Below are positions 35,889 through 53,850 of a stretch of 64,000 bases of DNA, one piece after another. Numbering within the stretch: the first letter of the stretch is position 1; every line of letters begins with the position of its first letter. A model generated the notes under the pieces. It did no database searches. It saw only the letters and a list, made by a program, of their open reading frames with translations, and was not told the DNA's origin. The position numbers and the translations under genes were made by a program. The DNA comes from Candidatus Brocadia sinica JPN1 (lineage in GTDB: Bacteria > Planctomycetota > Brocadiia > Brocadiales > Brocadiaceae). The stretch covers positions 434,001-498,000 of the forward strand of contig NZ_BAFN01000001.1 in NCBI RefSeq assembly GCF_000949635.1, written 5' to 3'.

Positions 35889-35983
35889 GGCTAATACCTT
35901 TTCTGATGTCACAATTGGACTCATATTTAGTACATCTTATTCTTTTTACAAGCAACGAAAGTCCTTTACCGAGGAATTGCATT

Positions 35984-37093
35984 ATGCGATATTTAATCAC
36001 CGAGGGGTTCTTAAAATACATTATTTGTCTCTTAGGTATAACCATTTTTCTACTGAACGGAAATGGGATATCTTTTGCCGATAAAGTAAAAATTGATTAC
36101 GATAATGGTTTTTTTCACCAGGACGATGAAGAAGATTATGACGAGAGTGAAGGAGATGACGACGATGGAGAGGATGACGATGAAAGCCACAATGCAGGGA
36201 GGAATTGTCTGACCAGCGATTGTCATTCCAATGGCAATGAGCATCATTTTTCTGTTGGTGGAACGATTTACACCGATGCCGATGGTACGGCCAGGAGAAC
36301 GGGAGCGGAAATAAAGGTAATAGATGCGACCGGCACCACAACCATTTTAAGGTCTGATGGGTTAGGGAATTTTTATTCTGAGAAGACCCTGAATGCCCCC
36401 TTTATCATATCAGCATTGTATGGAGGTCGCGAGGTAAAAATGCCTATCCCAGCCCCTGATGGCGGTTGTAATGCCGAGAGTTGCCATGTGATTGGCGTTG
36501 CCGGAAGGGTCTTTATCAGCACGAATGATCTTGACTTGACCGGCACGGTAACTGAGGCCGCATCAGGGAGAGTATCTTCGGAAATAAGTTATAACGGCGA
36601 CATAAAATCAATTCTTGATGCAAAATGCATTATCTGCCATAGCTCAGGAGGAATAAAAAGTGACGTTCCATTAACAACGTATACTGAGGTAACAGATCCA
36701 AGACTGGTAATACCAGGAAGTGCCGATTCTCTCTTATTAAAGAGGGTTGATAAAAATTCGAGTATAGGTACTATGTGGAAATATCTTAATAGTCGCAGTG
36801 ATTACAAAAAAATGAAAAAATGGATCGTCAAATATAATGCTCAAGAGTTTTCTTCCGGCCAGGTATCTTCTGTTGGGGAAGCGATATCAGCAGCCAGGGT
36901 CAGTCTCCGCCAGAATGGAAGTGTCAGATACAAGGCAGTCACTGATGCTGAGGGTACATTCGTAATGAAATCGGTAAAGGCTGGAGAGTACATCTTGAAA
37001 ATTTCTAAGAAGGGTTACAAAACTTACAAACAAAGCTATCAAATGAATCAAAGCAACGTTATACCTCTGGAAATTACGATCAAGAAGAAATAG
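35984..37093 (+). CDS. Exported putative haem protein with CX4CH and CXXCH motifs
   Basis: This protein of about 369 residues starts at the ATG preceded by GAGG (35984). It has a signal peptide (ending near ISFA), a very acidic segment (residues 47-67), a CX4CH motif (75-81), a carboxypeptidase-regulatory-like beta domain (about 90-155) and a second CX4CH (162-168). A cytochrome-like region with CIICH (215-219) follows, then a C-terminal carboxypeptidase-regulatory domain (about 290-368). It probably sits outside the cytoplasm and binds one to three haems. CX4CH is a rare haem-attachment form; its use here is inferred. Confidence 0.78.
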   Translation: MRYLITEGFLKYIICLLGITIFLLNGNGISFADKVKIDYDNGFFHQDDEEDYDESEGDDDDGEDDDESHNAGRNCLTSDCHSNGNEHHFSVGGTIYTDADGTARRTGAEIKVIDATGTTTILRSDGLGNFYSEKTLNAPFIISALYGGREVKMPIPAPDGGCNAESCHVIGVAGRVFISTNDLDLTGTVTEAASGRVSSEISYNGDIKSILDAKCIICHSSGGIKSDVPLTTYTEVTDPRLVIPGSADSLLLKRVDKNSSIGTMWKYLNSRSDYKKMKKWIVKYNAQEFSSGQVSSVGEAISAARVSLRQNGSVRYKAVTDAEGTFVMKSVKAGEYILKISKKGYKTYKQSYQMNQSNVIPLEITIKKK

Positions 37094-37179
37094 TAATTGT
37101 GACTGCTGCATAATGAAGATGTCAGTAATTGTAATGATGATAAATTGCATGGATATTGGTTCTTTTTAAGGGAGGATGT

Positions 37180-37749
37180 ATGTTTACGCAGATGAAAAAA
37201 TGTTTTGTATCTGGGGCTTTTATTGCTGGTATATTTACAACGGGGGCTATCCTCCCGGCAGCGGCATCCGCAAAAGACAAAATCGTGGGGACAGTAAGCA
37301 GCCTGGATGAAAGTACGGGAGCGATCACGATAATAGATAATCTTGTACAAGTGGATGCCAGTACTGCAACGATAAAGGTAAAGGGGGTTGATAATGCAAT
37401 ACTTTCGGATATTCAGGAAGGTGACATTATTAAGATTACGGGCAGCGCCGATGATTCAGGCGTCATCGAAGCAATACGTATTAAAGACCCTGTAAAACTA
37501 AATAAAAAATATGACGGCAAAATCACGGGAAAAACAGAAAAGGTAAACACTTCGAAAGATACCTTTCTCATTATGGGTCAACCGGTAGATGCTGGCAATC
37601 TACCGGGTGTTATCATGGGTGGAAGAACGATTTCGTTTGATACTATGCGTTCGGGCGTCAGTGTTGATGTATATGTTACAGCCAAGGATAGCCAGTTGGT
37701 CGCAAAAAAAATGATCATACGTTCTGAGAGTTGTAACTTTTGTCACTAA
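37180..37749 (+). CDS. Exported DUF5666-like protein ending in CXXCH
   Basis: This 189-residue protein has a signal peptide (cleavage near ASA-KDKIVG) and two successive OB-like repeats (about 32-110 and 112-180). These have the pattern GTVSSLDESTGAITI.. and GKITGKTEKVNTSKDTFLI, as seen in DUF5666 proteins. The last five residues are CNFCH, a perfect haem-attachment motif at the extreme C-terminus. The ATG at 37180 follows GGGAGG closely; 37192 is an alternative. It lies between two exported CX4CH proteins and is probably cotranscribed with them. Confidence 0.75.
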   Translation: MFTQMKKCFVSGAFIAGIFTTGAILPAAASAKDKIVGTVSSLDESTGAITIIDNLVQVDASTATIKVKGVDNAILSDIQEGDIIKITGSADDSGVIEAIRIKDPVKLNKKYDGKITGKTEKVNTSKDTFLIMGQPVDAGNLPGVIMGGRTISFDTMRSGVSVDVYVTAKDSQLVAKKMIIRSESCNFCH

Positions 37750-37794
37750 TAGGCAAGTAACTTATTTTTACAATTTTTAAAAAGGAATAGTCCA

Positions 37795-38376
37795 ATGAAA
37801 TATTTACAAAAAACTGTACTCTGTATTGGATTGAGTGTTGCCCTATACGGTACTCTTTCGAATACTTTATTCGCATCGGCGGTGGGTCCTATCGCTTACT
37901 GCACCGGCGCCCCAAATGACCACGGTACTTGTAGTGCAGACGGTTGTCACAATTCCTTTAGCCTTGATTCGGGAAACGCAATATTTTCAATAACTGTCCC
38001 CACCGTTTATACTCCTGGCAAGATGGTAAAATTGAAGGTTTCCTTTAGTAATTCCAACGGGAAAATGCATGGATTCGAGATGACGGCGCTGGATGCCAAC
38101 GGCAACAGGGTTGGAACGTTCAAAAAAATAGGAAATACTACCCAGGTTATTCCACCGAACGACTCCCGGGGGTTGGAGCAGGCGGACAAGGGTAAATATA
38201 TCGAGCATACCTTCAAAGGCATTAAAAAGAAAACCTGGAAACTGAAGTGGAAGGCCCCCAGCGATGCCACTGATCCAATCACATTTTATGCGGCTGGATG
38301 CGAAGCAAACGGGGACGGAGCCGCTACCGATGATTATATTTATACCGTTACCGCAGAAACATCTCCTGCGCCTTAA
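37795..38376 (+). CDS. Exported Reeler/choice-of-anchor V-like protein with CX4CH
   Basis: This 193-residue protein has a signal peptide (cleavage near LFA-SAVGP). A motif typical of the choice-of-anchor V / Reeler-like domain follows: YCTGAPNDHGTCSADGCHNS, where relatives usually have CXXCH. The beta-sandwich continues with HGFEMTALDANGNRVGTF and ITFYAAGCEANGDG. Here the potential haem site is CX4CH (Cys46-His52). An AAGGA ribosome-binding site precedes the ATG. It is the third gene in a run of exported haem-motif proteins. Confidence 0.82.
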   Translation: MKYLQKTVLCIGLSVALYGTLSNTLFASAVGPIAYCTGAPNDHGTCSADGCHNSFSLDSGNAIFSITVPTVYTPGKMVKLKVSFSNSNGKMHGFEMTALDANGNRVGTFKKIGNTTQVIPPNDSRGLEQADKGKYIEHTFKGIKKKTWKLKWKAPSDATDPITFYAAGCEANGDGAATDDYIYTVTAETSPAP

Positions 38377-47510: not shown

Positions 47511-47954
47511 ATGAAAGATTATACAAAGGGCAAAAGCCCGGAGATGCTCGAACCGTTTTTCCCAAATGAACTATTCAGGCACATTATAGTTTTGTGTTTT
47601 CTTGTTATTATCGAATTGGTTGCTGTCATCTTTTTTCCATTGCCCAAATTAGTAAAGAAACCCGACCACATACCCTGGCCGTTACTGCCGGTTTATAATC
47701 TAAAACAACTCATCCAAAACGAGACTCTTTTTATTTCTATCCTTGTTTTATGTGCTTTACTATTTGTTTTCTGGCCATTCCTTATACGTGAAAGAAGATA
47801 TACCGTATCATCTTTCAATAACACGGAAGGTACAAATAGCGGTTATGCCCGGTATGTCAAAGAGCGTTGCAATCTATGGCAAAGGCCCATCCCATTTATG
47901 ATCGTCATTACTGCGATTATTTTCGTGGTTACGTTATGTTTTATAAACCCATAA
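47511..47954 (+). CDS. Cytochrome b C-terminal-like (subunit IV-like) membrane protein
   Basis: This 147-residue protein has three transmembrane helices (about 24-43, 73-92 and 124-144). Its opening EPFFPNELFRHI and the later LPVYNLKQLI loop match the C-terminal half of cytochrome b / subunit IV, which lines the quinol-oxidation site. No haem-b half is encoded next to it, so it either partners a distant cytochrome b or has a new redox complex. It overlaps the five-haem cytochrome gene by 19 bp, which implies a functional pair. Confidence 0.72.
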   Translation: MKDYTKGKSPEMLEPFFPNELFRHIIVLCFLVIIELVAVIFFPLPKLVKKPDHIPWPLLPVYNLKQLIQNETLFISILVLCALLFVFWPFLIRERRYTVSSFNNTEGTNSGYARYVKERCNLWQRPIPFMIVITAIIFVVTLCFINP

Positions 47955-48919
47955 AACTGCTCCGGATATTTCTCCCCATTTTCACTTTAATTTTTTGTTT
48001 TCTTCCGGTTAGTTGTGTCATCTATCCTGAGTTGGTGGAAAAAGGGACAAAATCTCCTAGAGCCGAACGGTGCGGAGATTGCCATAGAGATATTTATGCC
48101 GAGTGGAAGGACTCACCCCATGCCAGCAGTTTCATCAATAGTGCATTTAGGGAAGAGACCAATGAATATCAGTTTACCTTTTGCATAGGATGCCATGCCC
48201 CCGAAACCATTTTTACGAATGAAAAGATTGCACCACGTAGTGTGAACCGGGAGGAGGGTGTAAATTGCAACACCTGTCACCTGAATGACTGCAAATTAAG
48301 TGGTCCTACACCTGCACACGGACCGCACCCCATTGCAGAAAAGAATCCATTTTTCAGGACAAGTGAGCTCTGTGGTAAATGTCATATAAGTACGTTTCTG
48401 GCATGGCAGAAATCAGATACAGCAGAGGGGAGGAAAACCTGCCAGGACTGCCATATGCCTGCAATAAAGCGAAAGCTTATTCAGGATGACCCCTGGCAGA
48501 AAATCTATCCTAAAAGAGATGGGAAACAGCACCTTTTCTCATCTCTGGCCATGTTTCATGGAAATGAGAATCTGTTAAAATTATCCTTTATACAAGTAAC
48601 CCGTTCGGAAGGAAAGATTAAAGGTGTATTGGAATTAGAAAATACAGACATTCCTCACAGCGTACCCACCGGGGATTATGGATACAGGGAAGTTATTGTA
48701 ACGACCGAACTGTTGGATAAAACGGGCCAGATTATAGATTTAAAAAAAGAAAGCCTGTTTATCGAATTGAAAACGGCTTTACCGTACAAGGGGAAAAAAT
48801 GCATTCCCTTTTGCTTTGGCTGGAATGAGAATTCATCTGTAATTAAAGCTACCGTGATCCGAACATCCTTTCATAAAGACAGAAATATTTTATTGTCAGA
48901 AACGATCCATAAACTTTAA
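47936..48919 (+). CDS. Five-haem c-type cytochrome (c554/NrfH-like repeats)
   Basis: This protein of about 327 residues has an N-terminal anchor ending in LPVSC (Cys27; an atypical lipobox with Pro at -3). Five CXXCH motifs lie at residues 46, 83, 111, 146 and 169, and a beta-rich domain without haem occupies about 195-327. The spacing resembles cytochrome_C554 proteins. It probably faces the periplasm (or anammoxosome lumen) and accepts quinol-derived electrons through the subunit IV-like protein, whose gene it overlaps. The ATG at 47936 gives a clean leader. Confidence 0.87.
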   Translation: MFYKPIKLLRIFLPIFTLIFCFLPVSCVIYPELVEKGTKSPRAERCGDCHRDIYAEWKDSPHASSFINSAFREETNEYQFTFCIGCHAPETIFTNEKIAPRSVNREEGVNCNTCHLNDCKLSGPTPAHGPHPIAEKNPFFRTSELCGKCHISTFLAWQKSDTAEGRKTCQDCHMPAIKRKLIQDDPWQKIYPKRDGKQHLFSSLAMFHGNENLLKLSFIQVTRSEGKIKGVLELENTDIPHSVPTGDYGYREVIVTTELLDKTGQIIDLKKESLFIELKTALPYKGKKCIPFCFGWNENSSVIKATVIRTSFHKDRNILLSETIHKL

Positions 48920-48923
48920 ATAG

Positions 48924-49034
48924 TTTGCTGAAGCCGAAAAAGTTAAACAAAAGGATTGCCATCAGGATGCAAACATTGAATCCGGGGTCTGTAAAAATTG
49001 CCACGAAAAGGGATTTGAGAGGAATTGGTTATAG
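48924..49034 (+). pseudogene. Multihaem cytochrome remnant
   Basis: Between two cytochrome genes a 36-codon frame flanked by stops (TAG at 48921 and 49032) reads ..QKDCHQDANIESGVCKNCHEKG. It contains one intact CXXCH and one decayed motif in which the first Cys is Gln. No start codon precedes it. It is probably the tail end of a deleted haem protein. Confidence 0.65.
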
Positions 49035-49070
49035 TATCCTGAATTTAAAGAATATCGCGAAGTAACTACT

Positions 49071-49862
49071 ATGATTAAAACATATTTACGATTGATTTTT
49101 TATACTGGTATTATTTTATTACAACCATTAGTATGGGGAGATGATATTTATGCAATAAAACCAAATACCCCCCCCTTTCTTACCGGTTCCTGCACTGACA
49201 GATGTCATGTGAATTACATGGCCTATCACACGGCGTATCAGGGGAAGGTATTCCAACATAAGACGCACTCCCCCAATCAGGGATTGGAGTGCAGTCAGTG
49301 CCACAATAATGATGCCGTTCATACAAAAACACACGGTGGTCTTATTATACAGAACAGTGACTGTTGGGTCTGTCATCACAAAAGAGACACCAAAGCAATC
49401 TCGAATCCTTTATACGCGCAGGATAAGGAACATGTATCAGATTTCTCGATTAACCGACCCCTTATAAAAAAAAATTCAGAGGAATACAGGGAAGATAAAG
49501 GATTTTCAGGTAAAATTGATTGTTTACGTTGCCATGCCGATGTGAATGATTACATAAATGGAGATATTCAAATCATCGGCATAAAGATACCGGATTGGAT
49601 GTCTCAGGCAGTGTCATGTACAGATTGCCATAAGCCGGAATCAGGCGGATATTCATTCAAATCTGTCCGGGAATATTGTATCGAATGCCATAATCAGGAT
49701 TATGGGTTATTGTATGATGCATGGAAAGAAGCGCTCGATAGCAAAATCAAGCAATTTTGTAGAAATAATTTAACTATGCAAGACTCTGTAAGACTGATTC
49801 AATCGTATGGCATACACAATTTCCGATTATCACAAACACTCTTAAGATCAATAGAACGATAG
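49071..49862 (+). CDS. Six-haem c-type cytochrome with one CX3CH site
   Basis: This 263-residue protein has a signal peptide (cleavage near VWG-DDIYA), an unusual CX3CH motif (Cys41-His46, CTDRCH) and five CXXCH motifs at 74, 98, 151, 183 and 203. His-rich spacers such as FQHKTHSP offer distal ligands, as in cytochrome c3/c7-type proteins. The C-terminal 55 residues are helical and haem-free. It should be a periplasmic electron carrier and forms a cluster with the five-haem protein and subunit IV-like gene upstream. Confidence 0.87.
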   Translation: MIKTYLRLIFYTGIILLQPLVWGDDIYAIKPNTPPFLTGSCTDRCHVNYMAYHTAYQGKVFQHKTHSPNQGLECSQCHNNDAVHTKTHGGLIIQNSDCWVCHHKRDTKAISNPLYAQDKEHVSDFSINRPLIKKNSEEYREDKGFSGKIDCLRCHADVNDYINGDIQIIGIKIPDWMSQAVSCTDCHKPESGGYSFKSVREYCIECHNQDYGLLYDAWKEALDSKIKQFCRNNLTMQDSVRLIQSYGIHNFRLSQTLLRSIER

Positions 49863-52363: not shown

Positions 52364-53185
52364 ATGATCCACTATTTCATTTGGATACTAACGGCATCAC
52401 TTTATACCCCTCTTTTTTTTGTGCTTTATCGTCATGGCTGGAAGTCTTCTGATTATACGCACGCCTATTTTATCATACCTGTATTCTTTTGGCTTGTGTG
52501 GCGTAAACGCGCACTCCTGAGAGAGTCCATTCAAAAGAGTACACCGGGCAACAACTTCTTTGGCCTTTCTATCCTGCTATTGGGAATTTTTCTGTTTACT
52601 TTTGGTTGGCGGCAGGACTATCGGTTTCTTACTGCGCTTTCTTTACTTCCGGTTCTGTATGGATTGGTAAGTTATCTTTACGGATTAAAAGTAACAAAGA
52701 TCTTATCTTTTCCTATTCTTTATCTGATATTGCTTGCGCCGATTCCCACCGGAATTATTGATAGCGTTACCCTGCCTATGCGTTATGGCCTTTCCGTTGC
52801 CACGGAGACGATCTTAAAACTTTTTCATTATCCAATCACAAGGGAAGGGCTTTTATTAACGATTGGCAAGACTGATTTGTTTATGGGACAACCTTGTAGT
52901 GGATTTCGTTCTATCGTTACGATGTTTTCTTTGGCTTTAATTTATGCATATATAAATAAGGGCAGCATATCCAAAAAAGGTGTCCTTGTCTCTTCCATTA
53001 TTCCTCTTGCGCTCGTGGGCAATCTTATCCGGATTATAACCTTATGCCTTATCACCTATTATTTTGGCGAGGAAGCTGGCCAGGGATTTTTTCATAGCAT
53101 GAGCGGCGTTGTAATATTCGTGTTTATCATTCTGGGATTAATTGGATTGGAATATTTGCTTGAAAGATGCAGGATAACAAGATGA
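52364..53185 (+). CDS. Exosortase (PEP-CTERM transpeptidase)
   Basis: This 273-residue multi-span membrane protein has the exosortase catalytic residues: Cys178 in GQPCSGFRS, Arg223 in GNLIRI and His244 in FFHSMSG. It cuts PEP-CTERM proteins near the PEP motif and passes them to the envelope or outside. YTHAYFIIPVFFWLVW in the first part is also typical. The stop overlaps the EpsI-like gene start (ATGA). The PEP-CTERM gene lies just upstream, and the whole unit is downstream of the cyclic-di-GMP riboswitch. The exact exosortase subtype is not assigned. Confidence 0.92.
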   Translation: MIHYFIWILTASLYTPLFFVLYRHGWKSSDYTHAYFIIPVFFWLVWRKRALLRESIQKSTPGNNFFGLSILLLGIFLFTFGWRQDYRFLTALSLLPVLYGLVSYLYGLKVTKILSFPILYLILLAPIPTGIIDSVTLPMRYGLSVATETILKLFHYPITREGLLLTIGKTDLFMGQPCSGFRSIVTMFSLALIYAYINKGSISKKGVLVSSIIPLALVGNLIRIITLCLITYYFGEEAGQGFFHSMSGVVIFVFIILGLIGLEYLLERCRITR

Positions 53186-53850
53186 ATAAGAAGAAAAAAG
53201 GATTGATACCTATCGCATTGTTGTTATGCGCTATTATTTATTGCTTCGGTTTTCCAAAAGCAAAATATGAAAGCCTGAATATCCTTTCCCAATTGAAAAT
53301 ACCGCTTGAGATTAACGGATGGCAGGGAAGGGATGTGGAGCAAGAATGGAATATGGAGGGCGAAGAATATAATTTTGTTAGCCAGGCATTGGATCGTGAA
53401 TATGTCAATGCAGATGGTAAAAATCTTTTTTTACTCGTACTGGATGCAGGCAATTTTCACAATCCAAAGGTATGTTCTAATAGTTCCGGCTTTAAAGTCA
53501 TTGAATTAAATAACCTTGAGTTTCATGTAGTAAATCGTACATTTCAAGCTCATAGTCTTTATACCGAAAAGGATGCCGATGGTTTTCTGATAATTTATTG
53601 GATTTGTATCGATAAAAACGTCGTTGATTGGACAGAACAGAAAATAAAACAGTTATGGTTCTCATTGATTAATAAAAAAAGGGCTGGTCTCATGATCCGA
53701 GTTGATGTGCCCACGAAAGAAGATACTATCGGGGACGCCTTGAAATTGGCGGAAGATTTTATTGCAGATTTAGGATGGGCAATGTCTTCAGATCAGGCAA
53801 GCTATATTTTCGGAAATCCAGGAACAGTTGCTGATCTATCTCTAAAGTAA
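53182..53850 (+). CDS. EpsI-like exosortase-associated protein
   Basis: This protein of about 222 residues starts at the ATG in the ATGA overlap with the exosortase stop; an ATG 15 bp earlier is also in frame. It has an N-terminal membrane helix (about 8-25) and an extracytoplasmic EpsI domain: INGWQGRDVE, NPKVCSNSSGFKV with a conserved Cys, and a later IYWICIDKN segment. EpsI proteins occur fused to or beside exosortases in exopolysaccharide loci, and their biochemical role is not settled. The coupling implies equal synthesis with the exosortase. Confidence 0.85.
   Translation: MNKKKKGLIPIALLLCAIIYCFGFPKAKYESLNILSQLKIPLEINGWQGRDVEQEWNMEGEEYNFVSQALDREYVNADGKNLFLLVLDAGNFHNPKVCSNSSGFKVIELNNLEFHVVNRTFQAHSLYTEKDADGFLIIYWICIDKNVVDWTEQKIKQLWFSLINKKRAGLMIRVDVPTKEDTIGDALKLAEDFIADLGWAMSSDQASYIFGNPGTVADLSLK

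Follow-up and report, generated by a model that had tools for sequence, protein, structure and literature searches.

The window considered here is a stretch of 64,000 nucleotides of the 4.08 Mb genome of Candidatus Brocadia sinica JPN1 (contig NZ_BAFN01000001.1, positions 434,001 to 498,000). It holds three consecutive genes on the forward strand, which code for exported proteins that we call P1, P2 and P3. A preliminary description of this DNA had noticed that all three carry candidate haem sites: two CX4CH and one CXXCH in P1, one CXXCH as the final five residues of P2, and one CX4CH in the Reeler-like P3. These observations are confirmed, and the features are the following.

35984..37093, + strand: P1, exported protein of 369 amino acids (ATG at 35984), first of the three genes; acidic linker, two CX4CH motifs flanking a predicted beta domain, CXXCH segment, C-terminal CarboxypepD_reg domain
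36206..36226, + strand: P1, CX4CH site 1, CLTSDCH (C75, C80, H81)
36467..36487, + strand: P1, CX4CH site 2, CNAESCH (C162, C167, H168)
36626..36640, + strand: P1, CXXCH, CIICH (C215, C218, H219), in a cytochrome-c-like segment (residues ~201-283)
37180..37749, + strand: P2, exported DUF5666 protein of 189 amino acids (PF18914, 27.5 bits for a cut-off of 27)
37732..37746, + strand: P2, CXXCH, CNFCH, the last five residues (...SESCNFCH-stop)
37795..38376, + strand: P3, exported Reeler / choice-of-anchor V protein of 193 amino acids, a predicted beta-sandwich with an N-terminal arm
37930..37950, + strand: P3, CX4CH, CSADGCH (C46, C51, H52), residues 19-25 of the mature protein if the signal peptide is, as we suppose, cut after A27
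47870..49862, + strand: two multihaem c-type cytochrome genes (Cytochrome_C554-like and Cytochrome_C7-like), about 9 kb downstream of the trio

The signal peptides of P1 to P3 were judged by eye from the sequence and the gene calls are simple reckonings; a second in-frame ATG lies at 35906, upstream of the start given for P1. Besides those of the motifs, the only cysteine of P1 is C15, within the signal peptide, and mature P1 and mature P2 have no cysteine outside the motifs. P3 holds two further cysteines, C36 and C169, which are absent from many of its relatives. Strongly acidic runs of Asp and Glu occur near haem motifs or genes, in a small exported gene that precedes P1 (35436-35888) and in the linker of P1 (residues ~45-70); an acidic tail also follows the CTFCH of a P2 orthologue (L045, in genome G018).

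All readable homologues of P1 have CX4CH at site 1 (12/12) and at site 2 (14/14), and C162, N163, C167 and H168 are invariant in an 11-row alignment. Short homologues (L011, L012, L028 and L029) keep both CX4CH motifs and have no CXXCH segment. Judging from its sequence, this segment resembles a small cytochrome c domain, and M264 (in GTMW), which is nearly invariant, is a candidate for its distal ligand; the matches of residues 201-283 to known cytochrome families in Pfam, Haem_bd (E 0.06) and PccH (E 0.097), are both below cut-off. The C-terminal CarboxypepD_reg domain scores 44 bits (cut-off 32.3). The structure model of P1 is unusable (pLDDT 54), and searches of the sequences of the PDB with P1, P2 and P3 returned no relatives. 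In one Brocadia-type genome (G004:C1 ~1.0208-1.0216 Mb, L146), P1 is split in two reading frames, and P2 and P3 are intact alongside.

The terminal CXXCH of P2 is retained in 15/15 orthologues, at the exact C-terminus in 13 of the 15, and more distant DUF5666 proteins lack it. Among 343 Planctomycetota genomes, the P1 homologues that have the CX4CH half and the P2 orthologues that have the terminal CXXCH are all found in the anammox family (Brocadiaceae). P3 belongs to a wider family. It matches the choice-of-anchor V profile NF041895 with 109 bits (cut-off 42) and Reeler PF02014 with 34.4 (cut-off 21); choice-of-anchor V proteins are found in 44 of the 343 Planctomycetota genomes at E <= 0.001, above cut-off in 37 of these, and they are present too in Acidobacteriota and Bacteroidota. 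In 88 non-redundant relatives of P3, C46 is conserved at 100%, C51 and H52 both at 99%, and these columns are among the best conserved of the family, while the residues between the two cysteines vary.

The frequency of the motifs says little about their significance. In 800 kb of stretches from the window genome, the 157 exported soluble-like proteins contain 50 CXXCH and 2 CX4CH, for a mean of 0.7 CX4CH after shuffling; the excess is not significant, and raw motif counting was dropped as a proof. This count would agree with motifs that arose by chance in exported proteins of unrelated kinds, but the Cys and His residues are conserved near-completely across dozens of homologues (whose numbers are not counts of independent events) and the intervening residues are not. 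It is because of this conservation, and not because of the raw count, that the motifs are more than chance, as the preliminary description had argued; the alignments already refute the opposite reading, whose probability we consider negligible.

The conservation of the spacing itself is another matter: CX4CH is constant in the readable homologues of P1, and the spacing varies from 2 to 5 in the family of P3. The 88 non-redundant P3 relatives comprise 11 CX2CH, 13 CX3CH, 58 CX4CH and 3 CX5CH (3 have no readable motif). Outside the anammox family the motif is mostly CXXCH, as the preliminary description had stated of the relatives of P3: the choice-of-anchor V proteins of non-anammox Planctomycetota are CX2CH in 12 cases out of 12. 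CXXCH also occurs within the anammox family (CDVCH in the P3 homologue of genome G012), and two near-identical proteins, L182 (CNDGCH) and L183 (CNDTGCH), differ in having CX3CH and CX4CH, respectively. In a tree built from the domain behind the motif, the motif being left out, the spacing changes at least 11 times, which is a rough minimum since the tree is a quick one based on few columns. As read from the alignment, selection in the P3 family acts on the two cysteines and the histidine, not on the distance between them.

CX4CH is also present in undoubted multihaem cytochromes of anammox bacteria. The hydrazine dehydrogenase of the window genome, which matches PDB 6hif over its full length (1257 bits), has seven CXXCH and one CGTSECH; 6hif has CGTAECH at the matching place, where the related 4n4j shows CXXCH. 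The 6hif complex reportedly contains 192 haems in 24 chains, and this number requires that a haem is bound at the CX4CH. Besides its 13 CXXCH, one multihaem cytochrome contains CTQLGCH in the window genome, CTQAGCH in genome G002 and CTQSGCH in G026, whereas the G012 protein has CTTCH at that place; a second one, with 10 CXXCH, retains a CX4CH in three genomes, each from a different genus (the "13+1" and "10+1" haem figures are motif counts). In the preliminary description, the repeated use of CX4CH was taken to suggest a dedicated set of proteins; this idea is not supported, as hydrazine dehydrogenase, the multihaem cytochromes and P3 paralogues at other places in the genome also have the motif, and the spacing in the P3 family drifts.

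Regarding the cytochrome c maturation synthases, which the preliminary description had proposed to look for, the window genome has System II: it contains ResB and three CcsA matches, with both the canonical motif WAKKAWGDYWSWDPKE and a modified motif WGYVAWGAYFLWDAK, while CcmE is absent from this genome. This set fits the two System II complexes described in anammox bacteria, the second of which is a CcsA-CcsB pair with a modified CcsA that is found in all four anammox genera examined; the attachment motif is written CX2-4CH in the same study (Ferousi 2013, PMC4222556). In a third CcsA-like gene (PF01578; L126 ~1500-2263, G000:C1 ~3.9015 Mb) we did not see the tryptophan motif in its canonical form. 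The presence of a second, modified CcsA makes a specialised synthase possible, in that the second CcsA-CcsB pair, with its modified tryptophan motif, would be devoted to the maturation of CX4CH, and there is a precedent in Wolinella, where separate synthases serve CXXCK and CX15CH (PMC10663686). However, nothing ties the modified pair to CX4CH, and the drift of the spacing from 2 to 5 within one family, and even within single genomes, would not easily be allowed by a spacing-specific enzyme. We regard this mechanism as unlikely, and favor a maturation machinery that tolerates the longer loop.

It is very probable that haem c is attached at the C(x)nCH sites of the trio, since the Cys and His residues are conserved, CX4CH and CXXCH interchange at aligned positions in three families, an anammox enzyme of solved structure has a CX4CH, and the organism has System II. 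One may ask instead whether each site is a structural disulfide with a neighbouring histidine, or binds Cu, Zn or Fe on the arm of a beta-sandwich. The AF2 model of P3 (pLDDT 84, the arm that bears the motif being only moderately confident) has the Reeler fold (animal Reeler 3coo, Z 11.9, rmsd 3.1, 128 aligned, VIA), and animal Reeler domains are not known to bind haem; the copper-binding protein YcnI is among the fold matches (Z 7.8), and the free variation of the spacing would also suit a non-haem site. The histidine next to the second cysteine is nevertheless as invariant as the cysteines, CXXCH alternates with the longer spacings both within the P3 family and in the undoubted multihaem cytochromes, and mature P1 and P2 have no cysteine to spare. 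These observations make the disulfide or metal site improbable, and argue for haem.

The same model matches cytochrome f (1cfm) with Z 10.3 and rmsd 3.3 over 144 aligned positions (model residues 27-193 on chain residues 1-248), although the fold class is a common one; cohesins rank below (Z 9.4). The ranking of Foldseek alone was discarded for P3, because it is headed by antibodies, which reflects a signal common to beta-sandwiches in general. Cytochrome f is a beta-sandwich protein with a CXXCH at mature positions 21-25, and the distal ligand of its haem is the amine of the aromatic residue 1. An aromatic residue (Trp, Phe or Tyr) follows the likely cleavage site in 45 of 79 P3 relatives; a rough control with exported proteins of the window genome gives 9 of 90. 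Comparison of P3 with cytochrome f by hhalign gives a probability of 0.6% with the motif unaligned, and no relation emerged whether or not the motif was masked. The 88 relatives have no invariant distal His or Met: H92 (76%) and H138 (86%) both vary, and a fixed distal ligand at either position was rejected since some members have neither. In a P3 clade with CGNLGCH (L076-L080, L204-L214 and L131 9012-9671), which is present in nearly all the anammox-family genomes searched, the mature N-terminal residue of many members is likely His; the member in the window genome (G000:C1 ~539 kb) lies a few kb from genes for 8-haem and 6-haem cytochromes and for membrane proteins of cytochrome-b-like type.

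Haem ligation in P3 may resemble that of cytochrome f, which we consider possible but rather unlikely. A broader proposal can be made with the same caution: the bacterial Reeler/choice-of-anchor V proteins could form a hitherto unrecognised class, spanning phyla, of monohaem proteins that resemble cytochrome f, with a haem held by the C-x(2-5)-CH of the arm and by the amine of an aromatic N-terminal residue, a class that would have expanded in anammox bacteria for electron transfer at the outer membrane. We offer this reading tentatively, and consider it rather doubtful. Among the papers searched, none makes a relevant link between anammox and CX4CH, between Reeler and anammox, or between Reeler and cytochrome f.

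Regarding the function of the trio, the gene neighborhoods are informative. In Brocadia, the three genes lie between thioester reductase/SCP2 genes and glycosyltransferase/RND transporter genes, an arrangement that is common to several genomes, and no porin gene is beside the trio in the window genome. Homologues of the two downstream cytochromes (47870..49862) adjoin relatives of P1, P2 or P3 in other genomes. In Jettenia ecosi (L137) the order is 10+1-haem cytochrome, 5-haem cytochrome, P3, porin-like protein, 13+1-haem cytochrome, P1; in genome G012 (L135) it is P1, P3, porin-like protein, 16-haem cytochrome; in G018 (L143) P2 is found together with four multihaem cytochromes; and in G020 the relatives of the trio are associated with porin and multihaem cytochrome genes. 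A porin and a multihaem cytochrome are clustered with the relatives in G026 and G012 and with a P3 paralogue of the window genome, but not with the trio of the window. This paralogue belongs to a conserved operon (L094 2237-5438, in the window genome, and L134 275-5221) that encodes the P3 paralogue, a porin-like protein and a 14-site (13+1) multihaem cytochrome; it is a candidate for an outer-membrane electron conduit. The term porin-like was assigned from a signal peptide, a strand-rich sequence and a terminal Phe, and these proteins have no Pfam or NCBIfam match. Two other genes of the window (52364-53850), read from their sequence, resemble an exosortase and its EpsI-type partner.

Anammox bacteria are able to use an electrode as the electron acceptor for ammonium oxidation, for which the involvement of a porin-cytochrome complex was proposed (PMC7188810). 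It is this electrode-dependent metabolism, together with the porin and multihaem cytochrome neighborhoods, that leads us to place the trio in electron transfer in the envelope. Alternatively, the proteins may bind haem but act in sensing, in the storage of haem or as part of the surface structure: Reeler and DUF5666 proteins that have a single haem and no conserved distal ligand could bind ligands, and the Brocadia trio sits in a gene cluster of envelope or lipid type. This is possible but doubtful, considering the association with porins and multihaem cytochromes in Jettenia, G012, G018 and G020, and the P3 paralogue in the porin/cytochrome operon of the window genome itself. We consider it likely that the three proteins are c-type haem proteins which are exported and pass electrons in the cell envelope, and the widespread P3 family looks like an unrecognised class of haem carriers, which would probably have this function.

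The scheme that we infer for haem attachment, distal ligands, localisation and electron transfer is the following. The apoproteins would be exported, and System II (CcsA-CcsB) would then join haem to both cysteines of each CX2-5CH, the histidine adjacent to the second cysteine becoming the proximal ligand. This would give three haems for P1, a single one for P2 at the extreme C-terminus, and a single one for P3 on the arm that precedes the beta-sandwich. Members of the anammox family would have acquired a longer loop between the cysteines, mostly of four residues, and the maturation machinery would tolerate this longer loop, as it does in hydrazine dehydrogenase. The trio would pass electrons in the envelope; its probable partners, as donors or acceptors, are clusters of porins and multihaem cytochromes that cross the outer membrane.

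It is important to note that haem proteins are usually counted by searching for CXXCH. In anammox bacteria such a count overlooks the P3 family and some of the multihaem sites, and with them potential partners in the as yet undefined route by which electrons leave the cell. If the choice-of-anchor V proteins do carry haem, the family needs re-annotation in Planctomycetota, Acidobacteriota and Bacteroidota. The P3 family is also a ready series, with spacings of 2, 3, 4 and 5 at one site, for learning how System II synthases gauge the cysteine spacing.

Like the trio, hydrazine dehydrogenase (6hif), when compared with hydroxylamine oxidoreductase (4n4j), has CX4CH where a relative has CXXCH, in the same group of organisms and with the same System II, but it is an octahaem protein of another fold, unrelated to P1, P2 and P3. 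Desulfovibrio cytochromes c3 use CX4CH as well, and share it with the trio as a haem c motif, in a different, small tetrahaem fold. Regarding porin-cytochrome conduits of the MtrAB type, the relatives of the trio likewise adjoin a beta-barrel-like protein and large multihaem cytochromes; unlike in these conduits, the trio of the window stands outside such an operon, and the neighbouring porins of the relatives match no Pfam or NCBIfam family. The proteins described by NF041895 and Reeler share with P3 a family-wide N-terminal C-x(2-5)-C-H, whereas the family names do not mention haem, and the anammox members mostly have CX3-5CH rather than CXXCH. Last, P3 is shorter than cytochrome f (1cfm, 1ctm, 6rqf), its sequence has no C-terminal membrane anchor and there is no similarity between the profiles; and yet P3, as modelled, is like cytochrome f a beta-sandwich with a haem motif about 25 residues past the mature N-terminus, the fold match takes in the N-terminal arm, and many P3 relatives have, like cytochrome f, an aromatic first residue.
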